Shown here: positions 1-5,982 of the stretch, in pieces | Layout of the letters: every line of letters starts with the position of its first letter | Numbering within the stretch: position 1 is the stretch's first letter | From: an uncultured Lachnospiraceae bacterium | GTDB lineage: Bacteria > Bacillota_A > Clostridia > Lachnospirales > Lachnospiraceae | Direction: 5' to 3' | Assembly: GCA_947564305.1 (NCBI GenBank) | Contig: CANOBT010000270.1 | Location: forward strand, 1-5,982 | DNA length: 5,982 nt | Notes under the pieces: generated by a model | What the model was told of the DNA's origin: nothing | Databases searched by the model: none | Seen by the model: the letters and a program-made list of their open reading frames with translations, nothing else | Made by a program: the position numbers and the translations under genes

Positions 1-234
1 TCTTGCCGCCTCACGGAGCTTTTCGACAGCATCGGTCTGTGGAATTTTCGGATTCTCATACCCCGCAAAAACATATTCTGGTATAGTATTAATAACAGCC
101 CGTGTAAACTCATCTAATTGATATAAAGGTTTTCCGTTATCATCTATATCCAAGTCAATCAAAAATGAATTTACATCATCTTCTTGAACCCTTGCTATAA
201 TAATATTTTTTCTATCAAAAGTCCTGTTTATCAC
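1..234 (-). CDS. Hypothetical protein, N-terminal 78 residues (runs off the left edge)
   Basis: The reading frame starts at GTG (232-234) and is open to the window edge. An AAAGG Shine-Dalgarno lies 8 nt before the GTG, and the frame has no ATG between the upstream stop and this codon, so the GTG start is well supported. The visible part begins MINRTFDRKN, is acidic and soluble-looking (a DDVNSFLIDLDIDDNG stretch), and has no signal peptide or membrane segment. It contains a TIPEYVFAGYENPKIP segment that I do not recognise. It lies downstream of the disrupted YhcG-type nuclease on the same strand, 130 bp away. That gap shows no obvious terminator or strong promoter, so the two may once have been co-transcribed. 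I assign no function. Confidence 0.6.
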   Translation of the reverse strand, partial: MINRTFDRKNIIIARVQEDDVNSFLIDLDIDDNGKPLYQLDEFTRAVINTIPEYVFAGYENPKIPQTDAVEKLREAAR

Positions 235-364
235 TTGAGTCGCCTTTCTCTTATGATTTAATGAAATCTTAAAGATTCGGTTTGTTAATTACCTACATAA
301 ACATTATTGGCGCACGCTCGAAATATTTGTTAATAATTGTTTATTCAATCACTTGTCATAAAAA

Positions 365-713
365 TCAATCCGATTCCGTGTCTTCAATTTTTTTAATCTT
401 TCCATTCTCCAACGCCCGATATTCCCGCCTTAATTCCTGTAACAGCTCTTCCTCACTCGGCAAATATAATTTATACTTCGATGCAAAAATCTGTGTTTCA
501 TTCTCTGGTAATGTAAACTTAACCACCGATTCGCTCTTGTCCGCACACAGCACAATTCCAATCGGCGGATTATCTCCCTCATTCATCAGCTCCCGCTCAT
601 AATAATGAACATACATCTGCATCTGTCCTAAGTCTTGATGCGTTAAGTCTCCGACTTTTAAATCAATCAGTACAAAACACTTCAAGATATAATTATAAAA
701 TACAAGGTCAATC
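365..713 (-). pseudogene. yhcG: YhcG/DUF1016 PDDEXK nuclease, C-terminal fragment (downstream half of the interrupted gene)
   Basis: This is the 3' half of a YhcG-like (DUF1016) protein, separated from its 5' half by the mobile element at 714-4246. Reading from the aspartate codon at 709-707 it encodes 114 residues and ends at TGA (365-367). It begins DLVFYNYILKCF, continues with VLIDLKVGDL and GQMQMYVHYYERE, and then IGIVLCADKSESVVKFTL. These match the conserved C-terminal nuclease part of DUF1016 proteins. The D of FWIDL (restored residue 228) and the D-x-K of IDLK (243 and 245) fit the PDDEXK active-site pattern; usual family members have E-L-K, so Asp replaces Glu here. No start signal of its own is seen; an in-frame TTG at 685 exists but lacks a clear ribosome binding site. 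YhcG-type proteins are often found near restriction-modification or defence genes, but their role is not well defined. Confidence 0.9.
708..713. repeat. Left 6-bp junction repeat TCAATC
   Basis: TCAATC lies immediately left of the element and is repeated at 4247-4252 on the right. Joining 1-713 directly to 4253 onward, with one copy kept, gives on the minus strand codons for H-F-W-I-D-L-V-F-Y with no extra or missing base. The repeat is therefore either the shared crossover (overlap) segment of tyrosine recombination or a target duplication of the same length. The 6-bp size fits the overlap length of tyrosine recombinases. Confidence 0.85.
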
Positions 714-722
714 TTATTCTGA

Positions 723-750
723 AATCGGAATAACGTGGATTATTCCGATT
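723..750. repeat. Symmetric 11-6-11 core-like site at the left end (circle-junction-like)
   Basis: AATCGGAATAA (723-733), spacer CGTGGA (734-739) and TTATTCCGATT (740-750) form two perfectly inverted 11-bp arms around a 6-bp centre. This is the geometry of tyrosine recombinase core sites such as dif. The left arm equals the outermost arm of the right end of the element (4236-4246), and the right arm equals the outermost arm of its left inverted repeat. The site therefore looks like right end plus spacer plus left end joined, as in an excised circle. A weaker arm-like sequence, TTATTCTGAAA (714-724, 8 of 11 matches), lies directly after the TCAATC junction. Binding by the recombinases is inferred, not shown. 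Confidence 0.7.
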
Positions 751-773
751 CTCTGATTATTCCGATTTTAGCA
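740..773 (+). repeat. Left terminal inverted repeat (34 bp, paired with 4213-4246)
   Basis: This 34-bp segment is a perfect inverted copy of 4213-4246, and two further bases (738-739) also match 4247-4248. It consists of the 11-bp arm TTATTCCGATT (740-750), spacer CTCTGA (751-756), the same arm again (757-767), then TTAGCA sharing into a T-rich edge. The two arms are direct repeats with a 17-bp period. They are the likely binding sites of the recombinases. Confidence 0.9.
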
Positions 774-810
774 TAGAAACCTTGATATTAACAGTCCCCC
801 CATAAGAAAA

Positions 811-836
811 AATCGGAATAATTCTTAATCCCCTAC
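811..836 (-). repeat. Left subterminal inverted repeat: arm copy plus ATCCCCTAC
   Basis: AATCGGAATAA at 811-821 is another exact arm copy, inverted relative to the terminal arms, followed by ATCCCCTAC at 828-836. The same two blocks recur in mirrored order at the right end (GTAGGGGAT 4123-4131 and TTATTCCGAT 4146-4155). The ends of the element are thus related over about 100 bp rather than only 34 bp. The copy lies just upstream of the first recombinase gene, so binding here could also affect its transcription; that is inference. Confidence 0.7.
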
Positions 837-858
837 CTAAGTGATTACTCCTTTGTTA

Positions 859-870
859 TGCTATTAAAAT
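859..870 (+). promoter_or_regulatory. Candidate extended -10 promoter for the recombinase operon
   Basis: TG-C-TATTAA (859-867) resembles an extended -10 element and is followed by more A/T, about 30 bp before the ritA start. No convincing -35 box is seen at 16-18 bp upstream, which an extended -10 promoter can tolerate. It sits inside the element, downstream of the terminal and subterminal arms, so the trio could be expressed from its own promoter after insertion. Confidence 0.35.
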
Positions 871-896
871 AAACCACAGCAAAGGAGGACATATCC

Positions 897-2138
897 ATGT
901 CACTATCAATTGATGAAGCCATCAAAAAAGTGCTTTCCTTTTTGAAAAGTATCCCTATGGCTCCTGCAACAGTAAAGTACTACTCTTGCTGCTGTTCGCA
1001 TGTCAGGGATTACTGTCAGCGCAATGCCTTACAGGAATTCTCATACAAAGATGCGGCTTCTTTCACAGCAGAACAGCTGAAATTGGCTGAAAATGGTAAA
1101 TTCGGCAAAATCTATGCATTGATCATGCGGAAAGCCGCTTACTATGTGGCAGATTGTTTCGAAACAGGTACGCTTGAATGGAAACGCAACAGGTATACAA
1201 TAACGGAACTACCTGAAAATTACCAGCAGATTCTTGGTTCTTTTGAGGAGTCTATTTCCGGAAAACTTGCCGAAGGGTCAGTCTATAACATCATTCATGA
1301 AATCCGGAAATTCCTGAAGTATCTTGAGAAAGCAGGCTGCCTCATTATCCAGGATCTGTCAGCTGATATCCTGCGTGCATATGTGATCCAAGAGGCTCCT
1401 AAACACATGGGCAATTACGTAAACCTCACATGGCCTCTGAAAAAGTTCCTTGCTTATGTCAAAAAGAGCGGCGTTGCCCTCTCGGGAACATTCGATTTCT
1501 TTCTGGCAAACCCGGCACCTGTACATGAGAGGGTGCTTCCGGCATTTGATGATGATGAAACAAAGGCAATACTTGAAAGCATAGATACATCAACAAAACA
1601 GGGCAGGCGTGATTATGCGGTGGTAATGCTTGCGCTTGACACCGGCCTTAGATGGTCGGACATTGCCAAGATGCAGCTTTCCGACATTTTATGGGAGAAG
1701 CGGGAAATCCGGGTGAAACAGGAAAAGACGGACACTCCGCTTACACTTCCGCTGACGCTCCGGGCAGGGACTGCCGTAGCAGACTATATATTAGAGGCCA
1801 GGCCGAAATGCAGCAGTCCATATGTTTTTCTCCGCCTCAGAAAACCTTACTCTTCTATGCTTTCATCTGCGTCTCCCACAAAGGACCTCATGGGACGTTA
1901 CTTCAAGAAAAATGGTATAGAACACCATTTCGGTGATGGAAAGACATTTCACGGGCTCCGCAGGACTATGGGAACCAATCTCGTCAGGAACGGGACCCCG
2001 CTGGAAGAGGTGTCACAGATCTTGGGCCACCGCGATATAAATTCGTCCAGGCACTATATATCCCTCCATGATGAAATGCTGGCTGAATGCTGCATGGACA
2101 TCAGCATGTTCGCTACAGAGAAGGAGGGGCTGCAATGA
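897..2138 (+). CDS. ritA: Tyrosine recombinase, first of the trio (RitA-type), 413 aa
   Basis: This is a tyrosine-family site-specific recombinase that cuts and rejoins DNA through a covalent 3'-phosphotyrosine. The start ATG follows a strong AAAGGAGG (881-888) at 8 nt. Residues about 1-100 form an extra N-terminal region, about 112-205 a SAM-like core-binding domain, and about 213-405 the catalytic domain. The complete active site is visible: R252 in TGLRWSDI, K277 in EKTDT, H352 and R355 in FHGLRR, H378 in ILGHRD, and nucleophile Y387 in SRHYI. It is longer than its two partners because of the N-terminal extension. The stop codon overlaps the next start (ATGA, 2135-2138), implying translational coupling. 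As the first gene of a RIT-type operon it probably acts with the next two on the repeated arms at the element ends. Recombinase assignment is very secure; the RitA label rests on gene order and size. Confidence 0.95.
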   Translation: MSLSIDEAIKKVLSFLKSIPMAPATVKYYSCCCSHVRDYCQRNALQEFSYKDAASFTAEQLKLAENGKFGKIYALIMRKAAYYVADCFETGTLEWKRNRYTITELPENYQQILGSFEESISGKLAEGSVYNIIHEIRKFLKYLEKAGCLIIQDLSADILRAYVIQEAPKHMGNYVNLTWPLKKFLAYVKKSGVALSGTFDFFLANPAPVHERVLPAFDDDETKAILESIDTSTKQGRRDYAVVMLALDTGLRWSDIAKMQLSDILWEKREIRVKQEKTDTPLTLPLTLRAGTAVADYILEARPKCSSPYVFLRLRKPYSSMLSSASPTKDLMGRYFKKNGIEHHFGDGKTFHGLRRTMGTNLVRNGTPLEEVSQILGHRDINSSRHYISLHDEMLAECCMDISMFATEKEGLQ

Positions 2139-3100
2139 AAACAAAACAGAAAACATTTGTATTTGCAAGCCTTTTTGCCGATGACATCCAGGGGATGGTG
2201 GAATACAAAGCCGCGCTCGGACATAAATGCGAAAGCTATGCCTGGGCCCTGCAGACTTTTGACCGGTACTGCCTGTCCCATCATCCGGATTCCGGCACGC
2301 TCACCCAGGAGATCGCTTTTGGCTTCTGTCAGGCCGGGACAGATGGGAAAAACTGCGGATACCGCGCAGGCACAGTCCGGGAATTCGGCCGTTACCTCTC
2401 TGCCATAGGGAAAGAGGCATACATCCTTCCCATGAATTTCTTCCCGCAGAAAAAAGCAGACCTTCCCTATATCATGTCAGATAATGAGATCCGGTCATTT
2501 TTCGGGGCGGCAGACCGTTATCCTCATGCGGACAACAGCCCCCTGCTCGAATATACGGTTCCGGTAATCTTCAGGCTCCAGTTCGCTACGGGAATGAGGC
2601 CGCAGGAAGCAAGGACCCTGAAGCGGGCCGACTTTAATTTTTCGAAAAACATGATATATATAGATGAAGCAAAAGGCCATAGGGACCGCAGGATTTTGAC
2701 TCTGCCGAATGTGATGGAACTGTGCAGGAAATATGACGCCATAGCAGAATCCCTCCATCCTGGCAGGACATATTTCTTCCCGTCCCCTGACGGCAGCCCA
2801 TACACGCATGGCTGGATGACGGAAAAATTCCACAAATGCTGGGAAAATGCCGGGAACAATACATCTTCCAAAAGCTGTACCCCCTATGATCTCAGACATA
2901 ATTTCGCAACAAGGACGCTCATGCGCTGGGTGGAGGAAGGAAAGGACCTGAATGCATATGCGCCATACTTAAGCACCTACATGGGGCATGTCACTTTTAA
3001 CAGCACCTTCTATTACATCCACCTTCTGCCAGAGAAGCTGGGTATCCAGAAGTTCATGGACATCCAGGGGATCATCCCGGAGGTGCCGCATGAAAGCTGA
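2135..3100 (+). CDS. ritB: Tyrosine recombinase, second of the trio (RitB-type), 321 aa
   Basis: The start ATG at 2135 is chosen because AAGGAGGGG (2121-2129) lies 5 nt upstream and the ATG overlaps the ritA stop by 4 nt. An ATG 16 codons earlier lies inside ritA and lacks such a site. Residues about 1-105 are a short core-binding domain and about 112-310 the catalytic domain. Active-site residues: R155 in ATGMRPQEAR, K180 in EAKGHRDRR, R254 in YDLRHNF, H285 in YMGHV, and Y294 in FYYIH, nine residues after H285 as in its neighbours. The first His of the usual HxxR motif is replaced by Tyr (Y251 in Y-D-L-R), so this box differs from ritA and ritC. The protein should still be catalytically competent, since that His varies in some family members. 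It overlaps ritC by 11 nt. Its role is presumably as a partner subunit in element excision and integration. Confidence 0.94.
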   Translation: MKTKQKTFVFASLFADDIQGMVEYKAALGHKCESYAWALQTFDRYCLSHHPDSGTLTQEIAFGFCQAGTDGKNCGYRAGTVREFGRYLSAIGKEAYILPMNFFPQKKADLPYIMSDNEIRSFFGAADRYPHADNSPLLEYTVPVIFRLQFATGMRPQEARTLKRADFNFSKNMIYIDEAKGHRDRRILTLPNVMELCRKYDAIAESLHPGRTYFFPSPDGSPYTHGWMTEKFHKCWENAGNNTSSKSCTPYDLRHNFATRTLMRWVEEGKDLNAYAPYLSTYMGHVTFNSTFYYIHLLPEKLGIQKFMDIQGIIPEVPHES

Positions 3101-4136
3101 TGCCTCAAGGGTTCTGGTCCGCAAACATCTCAGGCCGTATTTTACCGTGTTTCTTCCAAAACAACGCGGCTGCAGTGACAACACCATACAGAGTATACAT
3201 GACACATGGAACCTGTTCCTCCGTTACCTTTCTGCTGCAAAGGGCATTGACAACAGTCGGCTTGCTTTCTCAGATATCGACCCAGCGGTCGTGACTGGAT
3301 TTCTTGACCAGATGGAATTCGAGAAAGGCTGGAAACCATCAACAAGGAACCAGCGTCTAAGCTGCCTGAGATCATTTTTCAGATATGCGGCATCCATGGA
3401 ACCTGTTCTTTATCCTTGTTCGGCAGCACTGGGGGAGATACCCTTGAAAAAGGGGGCTGACCGTTCATATGTCATTGAATTCCTGAGCCCAGAAGAGATG
3501 AAATCCCTGCTGGCCGTACCGGATACAAAGACAAGACTCGGAGTGAGGGATCAGTTTTTCATGGCGCTGATGTACGATTCGGCAGCAAGGGACTGCGAGA
3601 TGCTGGGGCTGAAGCTGGAGGATTTCCATGAAGATAATAATACTGTCTACTTATGGGGCAAAGGCGCAAAGCCCCGGCTTGTTCCTGTTTCAGGGGAGAC
3701 CACAGCGCTTTTAGTCAACTACCGCAGAAAATTTCATCAGGGTTCAGCCTTACAGGAGCCGTTGTTTTACACGATACATAAAAGGGAGAAGACACCAATG
3801 TCGGATGACAATGTTGCCCGTTTCCTCAAAAAATATGCCGATTTAGCGAGAATGGAAAAACCTGACATCCCTGAAAGGATCCATCCCCACATGTTCAGGA
3901 AGTCGCGTGCCATGCACCTTTACCGTGCGGGAATGCCGCTGGCCCTTTTAGCGGAATTTCTCGGCCATGAGGATCCAGAAACGACCCGTATCTACGCATA
4001 TGCTGACACTGAGATGAAACGCAAAGCGATTGAAAAGGCTTCGCAAAATGTTGGGGAAGTCGCCAGCCTCCCCACAGAAAAAGCGTTTTGGGAAGGTGAT
4101 GACGACATCATCGGGCGACTCTGTAGGGGATACTAA
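3090..4136 (+). CDS. ritC: Tyrosine recombinase, third of the trio (RitC-type), 348 aa
   Basis: The start ATG at 3090 (MKADASRV) has GGAGG (3079-3083) 6 nt upstream and overlaps the end of ritB by 11 nt. The frame is open a further 34 codons upstream, but that part is a shadow of ritB. Residues about 5-108 form a SAM-like core-binding domain with the typical TxxxxxxxxxxFLRYL pattern (N31-L47) and NQRLSCLRSFFRYA (87-100). Residues about 128-318 are catalytic. Active-site residues are all present: R167 in SAARDCEML, K191 in GKGAKPRLVPV, H267 and R270 in HPHMFRKS, H293 in FLGHED, and Y302 in TRIYAYA. It resembles XerC/XerD-type integrases closely. Its last codons contain GTAGGGGAT (4123-4131), which belongs to the right subterminal inverted repeat, so coding and recombination sequences overlap here. 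No terminator hairpin with a T-tract follows it inside the element. Confidence 0.95.
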   Translation: MKADASRVLVRKHLRPYFTVFLPKQRGCSDNTIQSIHDTWNLFLRYLSAAKGIDNSRLAFSDIDPAVVTGFLDQMEFEKGWKPSTRNQRLSCLRSFFRYAASMEPVLYPCSAALGEIPLKKGADRSYVIEFLSPEEMKSLLAVPDTKTRLGVRDQFFMALMYDSAARDCEMLGLKLEDFHEDNNTVYLWGKGAKPRLVPVSGETTALLVNYRRKFHQGSALQEPLFYTIHKREKTPMSDDNVARFLKKYADLARMEKPDIPERIHPHMFRKSRAMHLYRAGMPLALLAEFLGHEDPETTRIYAYADTEMKRKAIEKASQNVGEVASLPTEKAFWEGDDDIIGRLCRGY

Positions 4137-4156
4137 TCAAAAAGATTATTCCGATA
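4123..4156 (+). repeat. Right subterminal inverted repeat: GTAGGGGAT plus arm copy
   Basis: GTAGGGGAT (4123-4131, inside the last ritC codons) and TTATTCCGATA (4146-4156, 10 of 11 matches to the arm) mirror the left pair ATCCCCTAC (828-836) and AATCGGAATAA (811-821). After this arm, TAGCATAGA (4160-4168) matches 769-777 next to the left terminal arm in the same orientation. The right subterminal region is therefore also a direct near-copy of part of the left tip. Confidence 0.65.
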
Positions 4157-4212
4157 AAATAGCATAGACAGTTTAATTCATGCAGACTGTATATAGTTTT
4201 TTAGGCGGCCTG

Positions 4213-4246
4213 TGCTAAAATCGGAATAATCAGAGAATCGGAATAA
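4213..4246 (-). repeat. Right terminal inverted repeat (34 bp, paired with 740-773)
   Basis: This is a perfect 34-bp inverted match to 740-773. It contains the arm AATCGGAATAA twice (4219-4229 and 4236-4246) with spacer TCAGAG (4230-4235), again at a 17-bp period. The next 6 bp are TCAATC, so the junction itself occupies the spacer position of the same 11+6 register. In the nuclease frame this end would add about 14 codons after the aspartate (YSDSLIIPILAQAA) and then a stop. Confidence 0.9.
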
Positions 4247-4252
4247 TCAATC
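4247..4252. repeat. Right 6-bp junction repeat TCAATC
   Basis: This is the second copy of the 6-bp direct repeat bounding the element; see 708-713. It follows directly after the outermost 11-bp arm of the right end. On the minus strand the bases read GATTGA and lie in codons W-I-D of the nuclease. Confidence 0.85.
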
Positions 4253-4928
4253 CAGAAATGGCGTCCATCAAAGGTGATTCTCTTCTGTCTGGCGACAAAG
4301 GAAAACCCTCTACCAAGTTCTAACAGAAACTTCTGCAAATGGGTAATTAAAGCCTGTTCCAAGTCGCTCTCATAGAAATCATCATTCGGATTCAGCCCAA
4401 GAAATTCAAGTACATAGGGGTCACGATAATATCTTCGGGTGTTTTAGCCGTCTCCGATGTCTGAATCTCAGCAGCAACCTTTTCTTTATTTTTACTGGAC
4501 AACAGCCTTTCATAGAAAAAAGTATTTATCTGACGTTCAAGCTGTCTGGTACTCCACCCGGATTTTACTGCTTCCTGCATATAGAACTCCCTTGCATTGT
4601 CATTTTCCACACGCATCAAAAGGCGATAGTGCGTCCAGCTCAATTCGCTACGCAGTGCGTAGCCATTTGGAAACGTCAAGTAAAACTGCCGCATGTTTTT
4701 CAAATTTGCAACAGTAAATCCTTTTCCAAAATCATGCGTCATCTGCTTGGAAAGTTCTTTCAGCAATCCTGCGCCATATTCCGCCTTTTCATTTCCACCC
4801 TGCTCTTCTATAATGGATTTGCCAATATTCCAATATGCTTCCACCATTGCAAAATTAGCAGTCTGGTAGACCTTGTTTCTTGCAGATAGCAATATATTCT
4901 GTATTTGATTATAAAAATTTTGATTCAC
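4247..4928 (-). pseudogene. yhcG: YhcG/DUF1016 PDDEXK nuclease, N-terminal fragment, frameshifted
   Basis: This is the 5' half of the nuclease gene. The start is GTG (4926-4928) with AAGGGG 9 nt upstream. The first 168 residues run in one frame (MNQNFYNQIQNIL...TPEDII) and cover the DUF1016 N-terminal domain, including TVANLKNMRQFYLTFP and LSWTHYRLLMRVEN. At about 4425 one base is missing. The original frame then gives VTPMYLNFLG and stops at 4392, whereas the shifted frame reads RDPYVLEFLGLNP and continues through LEQALITHLQKFLLELG and GFSFVARQKRIT to GRHFWI at the junction. Joined with the C-terminal fragment, the restored protein is about 341 residues, a normal family length. The gene is therefore broken twice, by the frameshift and by the insertion. 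A stable product of about 178 residues holding only the N-terminal domain could still be made. An error in the sequence cannot be excluded for the single base. Confidence 0.92.
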
Positions 4929-4943
4929 CTACAAATTCCCCTT

Positions 4944-5048
4944 TCACAACATATTTATGAAAATCCACTTATAGTTCTTTTCGGTCAGCCCTTTAACCAC
5001 TCTTGCAATGGTAGAATTATCCACATATGCCCTAGCAGAGACTGCCTT
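4944..5048 (-). pseudogene. Possible remnant of a MarR-like winged-helix protein
   Basis: Between the promoter and yhcG, a 34-codon open stretch without its own start encodes KAVSARAYVDNSTIARVVKG followed by LTEKNYKWIFINML and TGA. The part VDNSTIARVVKGLTEKNY resembles the recognition-helix region of MarR-type regulators (pattern V-D-x-S-T-I-x-R-x-V-x-x-L-x-x-K). A different frame just upstream reads QITKIERQSLL, which could be the preceding helix shifted by one frame. There is no room for a full MarR protein, so this would be a degraded fragment. The resemblance is by eye only and the call is tentative. The stretch could also just be the 5' leader of yhcG. Confidence 0.3.
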
Positions 5049-5071
5049 TCAATTTTCGTTATCTGAATACT

Positions 5072-5100
5072 ATTATAGTTCATTTTTCCCTATCTCACAA
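5072..5100 (-). promoter_or_regulatory. Sigma-A-type promoter upstream of yhcG
   Basis: On the minus strand TTGTGA (5095-5100) is followed after exactly 17 bp by a perfect TATAAT (5072-5077). Transcription would start near 5065 and run leftward into the yhcG N-terminal fragment with a leader of about 135 nt. It lies just downstream of the terminator at 5122-5165, so it begins a new transcription unit. Confidence 0.65.
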
Positions 5101-5121
5101 TGCAAAAGCAACACAAACTTC

Positions 5122-5165
5122 AAAAAACAACAGCCCCGCTCATCCTCCAAAGATAAGCAGGGCTG
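5122..5165 (-). terminator. Rho-independent terminator after the HTH gene pair
   Basis: On the minus strand CAGCCCTGCTTATC (5152-5165) and GATGAGCGGGGCTG (5131-5144) can form a 14-bp stem with two G-U pairs around a 7-nt loop. The stem is followed by a T-rich run (TTGTTTTTTG, to about 5121). It begins 12 bp after the stop of the gene at 5178 and ends its transcription unit. Confidence 0.88.
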
Positions 5166-5177
5166 AAACCCTCGTTT

Positions 5178-5468
5178 TTATACAATTCGATTTTCGGGCA
5201 GTTCCCCACGCAGTTTTTTAAGCTGCTCATTGAATTTCTTGTGCTTTTCTGATTTGACAGCAATCCCTATAAAATATCTGCTCACAAGAAAATCTAAAAG
5301 GTATTCTTTAGGAATCTGAAACTTTTGCCGTATAAAAAAGCTCTTTAACTCCTGTTTGCTGCACCATTTGGCAACAGAGCTTTCTCCATAACCCGTAAAT
5401 TGCGCCACCCGTCTGACATTCAACACATCGGGATAGTCTTTCAGCAGCATCTCATAATATTGCCGCAT
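5178..5468 (-). CDS. Small helix-turn-helix DNA-binding protein, 96 aa
   Basis: This is a basic 96-residue protein with an excisionase/MerR-like helix-turn-helix at about residues 16-62. LNVRRVAQFTGYGESSVAKW gives the two helices and the following F-x-I-x-x-K-F-x-I-P-K stretch the wing. The segment after it (LLDFLVSRYFIGIAVKS) ends in a Lys-rich tail. Proteins of this type are frequent in clostridial integrative and conjugative elements, where small Xis-like factors bend DNA or control transfer genes; the exact role is not known from sequence. The ATG follows the stop of the upstream HTH gene by 5 nt, with AGAGGA as ribosome binding site inside the end of that gene, so the two are co-translated. 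A strong terminator follows. Confidence 0.85.
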   Translation of the reverse strand: MRQYYEMLLKDYPDVLNVRRVAQFTGYGESSVAKWCSKQELKSFFIRQKFQIPKEYLLDFLVSRYFIGIAVKSEKHKKFNEQLKKLRGELPENRIV

Positions 5469-5473
5469 ACTGG

Positions 5474-5782
5474 TTAATCCTCTTTTGTAAATACATCTTC
5501 AAAAGACGGAGCTTTCTTGCATCCATCCCTCATATAGAATCCATCTGGAGCTTTATACAGCTCTGGGTAATCTTCTCTGTCATGCAGGTATTGAATGACA
5601 TCGGTTGTCTTGATTTTAAACCGCCGTGTCTTTTTCCCGCTGTCTATGTTTGGTACAAGACCGCTTTCTAAAAGGAAAAGGCAGGTCTTTTTGCTGATAT
5701 GACAGATGCGGTACATCTGGTCTTTGGTTATGTATTCGGGATATTGCTCCAGAATCTCCCTGCAATATTTTTCTGTAATCAT
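5474..5782 (-). CDS. Small helix-turn-helix DNA-binding protein, 102 aa
   Basis: This protein has a predicted excisionase-like helix-turn-helix at about residues 18-70: ITKDQMYRICHISKKTCLFL followed by a short GLVP turn and the basic wing KKTRRFKIK leading into DVIQYLHDRE. The ATG at 5782 is preferred over the GTG three codons earlier because AGAGG lies 8 nt before the ATG, whereas the same bases practically abut the GTG. It forms an operon with the next HTH gene (5-nt gap). The two proteins share layout: a YCREILEQYP- or YYEMLLKDYP-like N-terminus, then the HTH. They may be diverged relatives working as a pair. Function beyond DNA binding is inferred. Confidence 0.85.
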   Translation of the reverse strand: MITEKYCREILEQYPEYITKDQMYRICHISKKTCLFLLESGLVPNIDSGKKTRRFKIKTTDVIQYLHDREDYPELYKAPDGFYMRDGCKKAPSFEDVFTKED

Positions 5783-5834
5783 TCTATGCACCTCTTCGCA
5801 GTATTTTGGTCAACAGCAGAAGATTGGTGCCGTA

Positions 5835-5928
5835 GTTCTCTCTAAATATTTTTAGGAATCTTGAGAAGCCAGTCCAAACCGGGCTTCTGTTCTCTCCTCA
5901 GTTCTCTCCGTTCTCTCCAAGTTCTCTC
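5835..5928. repeat. Iterated GTTCTCTC motif (five copies)
   Basis: The 8-mer GTTCTCTC occurs exactly at 5835-5842, 5889-5896, 5901-5908, 5910-5917 and 5921-5928. Four of the five are clustered with start spacings of 12, 9 and 11 bp. The motif lies upstream of the HTH operon (as GAGAGAAC on the minus strand). An inverted repeat AGAAGCC/GGCTTCT (5864-5870 and 5882-5888) sits between the outlying copy and the cluster. The repeats could be binding sites for a regulator or initiator, or simply low-complexity coding sequence of the partial reading frame that overlaps them. Confidence 0.6.
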
Positions 5929-5982
5929 TTTTTTCCGTTTTTTGAGCCATTTTCGGGTGGCTTTCAGTGAGTTCGAATATTC
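5842..5982 (-). CDS. Possible C-terminal end of an upstream gene (runs off the right edge)
   Basis: From the right edge the minus strand is open for 46 codons and ends with TAG at 5842-5844. It encodes a very basic tail (SLKATRKWLKKRKKERTWRE, later LDWLLKIPKNI). A second frame from 5980 is also open (HPKMAQKTEKRENLERTERT, ending LASQDS) and stops at 5852. I cannot decide which one, if either, is coding. A gene ending here would lie about 60 bp upstream of the HTH pair in the same direction. No function is assigned. Confidence 0.3.
   Translation of the reverse strand, partial: EYSNSLKATRKWLKKRKKERTWRERRELRREQKPGLDWLLKIPKNI

Follow-up and report, generated by a model that had tools for sequence, protein, structure and literature searches.

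A recombinase-in-trio element in the I-D codons of a DUF1016/YhcG nuclease gene, and evidence that its clade recognises this site

This study was concerned with a stretch of 5,982 nucleotides from an uncultured Lachnospiraceae bacterium (contig CANOBT010000270.1, positions 1 to 5,982; hereafter the window), in which a recombinase in trio (RIT) element of 3.5 kb sits within a DUF1016/YhcG nuclease gene. The element body, between two target 6-mers, occupies positions 714-4246 and encodes three tyrosine recombinases on the plus strand: ritA (897-2138; 413 amino acids; Pfam Phage_integrase, 2e-29), ritB (2135-3100; 321 amino acids; Phage_integrase, 1.4e-16) and the XerD-like ritC (3090-4136; 348 amino acids; Phage_integrase, 2e-29, and Phage_int_SAM_1, 1.9e-07). 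The genes ritA and ritB overlap in an ATGA, and ritB and ritC share 11 bp on the same strand (3090-3100). The element was classed as a RIT by this A-B-C trio of overlapping tyrosine recombinase genes, by the ~3.5 kb enclosed between inverted repeats and by a palindrome at its end. Membership in a Tn554-like family was considered and rejected: the third gene is a tyrosine recombinase, and the target is DUF1016 rather than radC.

The terminal inverted repeats are each 39 nt long (738-776 on the left and 4210-4248 on the right) and are 97% complementary, and each contains two TTATTCCGATT units with a spacing of 17 bp. The target 6-mer, TCAATC (designated T), is found at both junctions, at 708-713 on the side of the C-terminal part of the gene and at 4247-4252 on the side of the N-terminal part. 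On the left it is followed by a 20-bp imperfect palindrome, TTATTCTGAAATCGGAATAA (PAL; 714-733), which lies on the C-terminal side in other loci as well, and then by an inner 6-mer, CGTGGA (designated M; 734-739). The order at the left end is gene, TCAATC, PAL, CGTGGA and repeat, and the order at the right end is repeat, TCAATC and gene. When read in frame with DUF1016, M encodes an [I/V]-D pair and may be the trace of an earlier target.

The interrupted gene lies on the minus strand. Its 3' (C-terminal) part (365-713) starts at the I-D codons, with the translation IDLVFYNYILK..., and matches positions 61-155 of the YhcG_C profile (4e-34). Its 5' (N-terminal) part (4247-4928) ends in ...GRHFWI and contains DUF1016_N (1.1e-46 at 4392-4928). 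The presence of both DUF1016_N and YhcG_C places the gene among the DUF1016/YhcG PDDEXK nucleases, and the Asp of I-D-L is presumably the metal ligand in the family pattern D...[E/D]xK (here IDL...IDLK). A sequence search for a solved structural relative of the DUF1016 protein returned none at E 0.01. Both halves match the PADLOC candidate defence family PDC-S02 (non-core), and one host genome (G006) has 17 YhcG_C matches, with fragments counted apart; thus, the gene that is hit by the element is a candidate for a role in defence, and a genome may have several copies of it. Beside the gene there are two small minus-strand reading frames (window positions 5178-5791), one of which resembles HTH_17 weakly, at a score under the curated cut-off, and the surroundings of the gene may form a larger mobile element.

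The initial annotation had read the two DUF1016 halves that flank the trio, with TCAATC at both junctions, as a base-exact insertion, and this was confirmed. Two empty sites were found among related loci. The first, L065, is from the same genome as the occupied locus L005 and is an intact homologue of the window gene. Its DNA reads ACAAGG TCAATC CAGAAATGG, with one TCAATC at 1772-1777, and its protein reads ...GRHFWIDLVFYNYILK... across the site. The window insertion is base-exact relative to L065, because both window flanks align on either side of this single TCAATC (94% over 652 bp and 90% over 599 bp). The second, L068, is from the same genome as the occupied locus L001 and is an empty copy of the gene that is occupied in L005, with the single 6-mer TCGATG; the right flank of L005 is 99.9% identical to it over 1000 bp and the left flank is 95.6% identical. 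Empty alleles of the kind that the initial annotation had predicted were found in L065 and L068. The 5' half in the window has an extra one-base frameshift (within 4249-4928), ~180 bp from the junction and separate from the insertion, and because of it excision alone would leave no open gene in the window. Intact copies of the gene are present elsewhere. The empty sites, together with near-identical copies of the element in other genomes, point to mobility of the RIT element in the past, as distinct from present activity.

Related elements were collected with two short peptide patterns taken from a RitA alignment. The scan covered one genome per species across 84,980 species, was not exhaustive and gave 62 RIT loci. 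Window-derived DUF1016 pieces were detected by tblastn in nine of the 62 (L001, L002, L003, L005, L006, L009, L011, L014 and L032). At the RIT ends these pieces meet at the same I-D residues, with the L002 and L011 alignments ending 12 and 4 residues short. Both DUF1016 halves adjoin the element in L002, L005, L006, L009 and L011, and a single half is visible in L001, L003, L014 and L032. In addition, Pfam YhcG_C was split at profile positions ~58-62 in several of 12 genomes. The proposal that the element recognises these codons, which predicted DUF1016 genes split at the same codon in other genomes, is supported by these nine loci. The elements of L001-L007 are ~98.5-99.9% identical to that of the window over the aligned stretches. 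RitA identity to the window ranges from 100% to 38% overall, with L009, L011, L014 and L032 at 38-46%. The target genes are also diverse (30-82% amino acid identity to the window-derived pieces), and the element is found in both orientations within DUF1016.

Beyond these loci, ritA searched as a single protein gave no relative among viral contigs, and a search with the RitA alignment gave two distant loci (L125 and L126). The relatives on plasmids and phages were all below 60% identity. The 99% cluster of the RitA protein P0001 has 787 member sequences, and many homologues are on contigs of ~3.5 kb, which is the pattern expected of collapsed multicopy elements. Several other observations concern the RIT loci themselves. 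In L019, the element's own ritA is split by ~1.7 kb of other DNA (1050-2761). In L001, the DUF1016 3' half beside the RIT holds a further insertion, partly resolved, that resembles an insertion sequence (13467-14340). A decayed RIT left end in G006 (L127:1950) follows TNGIYN in a gene that by eye resembles another PDDEXK/Rpn-type nuclease, with no Pfam match.

The ends that could be resolved share the organization seen in the window: two TTATTCCGA-like units lie in an inverted repeat, and one end usually has in addition the 20-bp PAL between two 6-bp spacers. The PAL lies on the side of the DUF1016 3' half in all eight loci where this could be read (window, L001, L002, L005, L006, L009, L011 and L032), and a terminal repeat directly adjoins the DUF1016 5' half in eight of eight (window, L002, L003, L005, L006, L009, L011 and L014). 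The element of L001, which is inserted in reverse, has its PAL at its opposite end, as expected if a circle opens on either side of the PAL. The PAL half that faces each repeat fits one circle in the window, L001, L002 and L004. The initial annotation had also taken TCAATC as a shared 6-bp core. It does occur twice in the window, but the two outer 6-mers are equal in only three of the seven two-sided loci of the window clade and differ in the other four; thus, spacer identity is not needed and the 6-mer is better described as a tolerant spacer. The inner 6-mer fits N[AG]TNGA, corresponding to the DUF1016 [I/V]-D, in 10 of 10 loci of the window clade, with L008 included and L032 read by eye, compared with 0 of 20 loci of other clades (Fisher's p 3e-8, kinship ignored). 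These 6-mers behave as if they were a record of earlier DUF1016 targets. Most elements of the other clades have the PAL at a single end, and in 14 of 20 loci (18 of 20 when one mismatch is allowed) the inner and outer 6-mers are reverse complements.

From these results we consider it very probable that this RIT clade homes on the DNA encoding I-D-L-[VI]-F-Y of DUF1016/YhcG genes and does so through a circular intermediate. What was observed is the exact site, its repetition across species and diverged elements, the empty sites, both orientations, the polarity of the PAL and the 6-mer patterns; what is proposed is that a circle forms, how the events follow one another and how RitA, RitB and RitC share the work. 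Excision by the trio would be a recombination between two 6-bp spacers, one separating the PAL from the 3' half and one separating the 5' half from the other repeat. The resulting circular molecule, R-repeat-[T]-PAL-[M]-L-repeat, would have a usable 6-bp crossover site on each side of the PAL and could enter a new DUF1016 gene through either. Either orientation would be possible because the circle could integrate through either crossover site, and the PAL would join the 3' half of the gene and the terminal repeat the 5' half. The spacers would not need to match, and therefore 6-mers of earlier targets would travel along.

Several findings weigh against this proposal. First, L005 and L006, from different species, have elements that are 99.9% identical and flanks that are ~96% identical, and they may be one insertion event; counted cautiously, there are therefore nine events with the window among them. 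The carrier of L006 is the commensal Eubacterium plexicaudatum ASF492. Secondly, some ends are not in DUF1016. The gene interrupted in L008 is LamG-like by a Pfam match of 0.0011 that falls short of the curated cut-off; the IELVFYN encoded on its PAL side counts in favour of the proposal. The left end of L003 is in non-DUF1016 sequence and lacks the PAL expected there, and the visible end of L007 is likewise outside DUF1016 and without a PAL; thus, rearranged or off-target ends exist. The 3' flank of L004, on its PAL side, is the end of another element, and its DUF1016 origin is inferred; this other element sits at a DUF1016 V-D codon in L093. Third, the PAL half is flipped in L005 and L006, and PAL-like palindromes are found at both ends in L036, L041 and L046 of other clades. 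In addition, six of the ten window-clade loci in the inner 6-mer comparison are from near-identical elements, and the recombinases might require or prefer N[AG]TNGA on chemical grounds. Lastly, among 397 genomes sampled evenly across the G006 family, 12 had a match and only G006 itself was close, so the sample is small. Related trios in unrelated sequences, which the initial annotation had named as evidence against site recognition, were seen mainly between clades; in or near the window clade they are L008, the left end of L003 and the visible end of L007.

The L093 site touches a separate observation on DUF1016 genes. In contig 10 of G010, a DUF1016 N-half (L093:965) and C-half (L094:6859) are ~56 kb apart and are cut at the same V-D codon. 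The interval is seemingly a large element which, from its reading frames and by eye, has ParA/ParB-like genes and three serine recombinases near the right end. A second, unrelated integration system may thus use the V-D codon in L093/L094. Another DUF1016 N-half (L095:860-1100) stops near the same codon; after it comes a short sequence with inverted repeats that resembles a miniature inverted-repeat transposable element.

In other RIT clades the flanks point to conserved motifs of other genes. The region of the first Asp of rve transposases flanks L017, L042 and L045, and by eye L021, and an IS21-like rve protein is interrupted just before K-x-E in L052. Mutator/IS256 transposases are cut at profile position 331 in L057 and L059. 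IS91-type transposases are the target in L039 and, by eye, in L027, whose piece has no Pfam match. L041 and L049 share one site in IS66 TnpB, and L036 is at another. The remaining protein targets are a DDE_Tnp_1_4 transposase (L020), an AAA_22 ATPase (L044), a C5 methylase cut directly after GGSPCQ (L047), a MobA-type relaxase (L114) and the active-site Tyr region of tyrosine recombinases (L016, L013 and L023 by Pfam, L025 by eye). Group II introns are the target in L028, L029 and L123 (Rfam RF00029, below the gathering score) and in L031 and L033. D1-D4 intron models match near L029 and L031 (upstream in L031); at the L031 and L033 junctions Rfam matched nothing, and both were labelled by eye, as was the target of L033 as a whole. 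By eye, the RIT in these introns seems to lie just after domain V. The catalytic identity of residues within these motifs is taken here from general knowledge of the families.

A tree was built from the 37 rows with an assigned target among 76 tabulated loci; the other 39 had ends off the contig, no recognised target (for example, L012) or flanks that were not worked out. The target labels were assigned before tree building by the same analyst, not blind, and L004 was labelled DUF1016 by inference. The 13 target types require 12 changes, which is the minimum, compared with a mean of 24.6 for shuffled labels and a value as low in 0 of 200 shuffles. This minimal fit covers the labelled rows only and is helped by near-copies (window and L001-L006). 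The group II intron, tyrosine recombinase, rve and IS256 groups each fall on one starred branch. DUF1016 is not a single clade and takes three changes (L032 is apart and L008 is inside), the two IS91 rows are ungrouped, and L036 (IS66) is apart from L041 and L049. The assembly of L036 is doubtful because a single TnpB piece makes up both of its flanks, in inverted order and close to the end of a contig.

Three other explanations were weighed against homing of the clade on DUF1016. The one that survives best concerns only the end structure: the PAL may be a tiny unit separate from the RIT, or integration may produce it as a side effect, as by fold-back of an end, with the inner 6-mer made anew each time. 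The inner 6-mers of the other clades fit this, because an inner 6-mer that is the reverse complement of the outer one makes T-PAL-T^-1 a single palindrome, as a fold-back would give, and L003 has an end without a PAL. However, in the DUF1016 clade the inner and outer 6-mers agree in only 3 of 10 loci, yet the inner one fits the target pattern in all 10, and the inner 6-mer of L031, CAGATC, is identical to the 6-mer targeted by L029, another member of its group II clade. We regard this explanation as unlikely but a serious contender. By comparison, it is very improbable that insertion is of low specificity and that the DUF1016 cases survive because the gene is dispensable and abundant. The copy number and the non-core defence assignment noted above are what such survival would call for, but dispensability cannot fix a codon, the same codon boundary recurs in about nine separable insertions, and target type tracks the RIT tree at the minimum number of changes. 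Horizontal spread of one ancestral DUF1016::RIT allele, with the shared site due to descent, has if anything a slimmer chance still: L005 and L006, with their shared target and near-identical element, may be such a case, but for the whole set it is refuted by the widely different target genes, along with the differing orientations and spacers, the divergence of RitA to 38% and the intact L068 copy of the L005 target, nearly identical on one side, in another genome.

The insertion in the window is real, recognition of the DUF1016 site by its clade is well supported, and a general targeting rule for RIT elements is possible. In its widest form, such a rule would make all RITs motif-homing transposons, in which each lineage recognises ~20 bp of DNA for the most conserved, often catalytic motif of one widespread gene and integrates as a circle whose palindrome offers two crossover sites and thereby keeps a 6-bp record of earlier targets. 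The targets would mostly be other mobile or defence genes (the PDDEXK Asp of DUF1016, the first Asp of rve transposases, the Tyr region of another tyrosine recombinase, the Pro-Cys motif of a C5 methylase and domain V of group II introns). We give this widest form of the rule an even chance.

These results are of interest for several reasons. First, the literature searched leaves the target of RIT elements, their end structure and the reason for three recombinases not understood; a clade with one exact target and base-level empty sites, and an end architecture that yields testable predictions, are provided here. Secondly, if the wider pattern is true, hyperparasites that disable mobile and defence genes would have durable landing sites in those codons of the genes that are under the strongest constraint. 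Third, three-recombinase systems with readable targets could interest builders of integration tools. RIT elements themselves are already known. No earlier report of the DUF1016 target or the clade-wise rule was found in the literature searched, with the main RIT paper (Ricker 2013), which may already contain parts of these results, outside the search, and no paper in that literature combined DUF1016 and tyrosine recombinase.

Among known systems, Tn916-type conjugative transposons have 6-bp coupling sequences which need not match and which travel with the element, and the 6-bp spacers of the RIT elements, which need not match and would travel along, resemble them in this. Tn916-type elements have one Int plus Xis, relaxed A/T-rich targets and conjugation genes. 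The Tn554 family inserts site-specifically in radC, with a short core and a single main target; its genes are TnpA, TnpB and TnpC, the third of which is not a recombinase, and it is not known to have a trio of the RIT type or a PAL. The Tn554 family shares with the window element a specific insertion site in a conserved gene, as far as the comparison row in Table 1 of PMC10214605 goes. The strand-biased circularizing integrative elements and GInts, as described in the available part of PMC10214605, likewise have several recombinase genes and 6-bp spacers that serve as a fingerprint or footprint of the site; the 6-bp fingerprints are described there in another element type. Their gene sets are of four genes, unlike the RIT trio, in this comparison by description.

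The closest likeness is to published RIT elements. The part of PMC3414803 available to us describes elements with ritA-ritB-ritC from Cupriavidus metallidurans and others, with an inverted repeat and a palindrome at the ends, and states that the ends vary in sequence with no convincing binding sites. The available text of PMC2864759 has related rit elements that interrupt radC in two hosts and another that interrupts IS66 tnpA. Table 1 of PMC10214605, so far as seen in that excerpt, gives RIT terminal repeats of 34 bp and lists target specificity as not tested. The portion of PMC8138268 at hand divides the recombinases into RitA, RitB and RitC subgroups, with two core-binding domains in RitA and an extra C-terminal helix in RitC. 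The window element has in common with known RITs the three overlapping tyrosine recombinase genes, the length of ~3.5 kb and the inverted repeat with a palindrome; compared with these published accounts, in the parts available, the present analysis adds the DUF1016 target, a palindrome with two 6-bp spacers and a clade-wise target rule.

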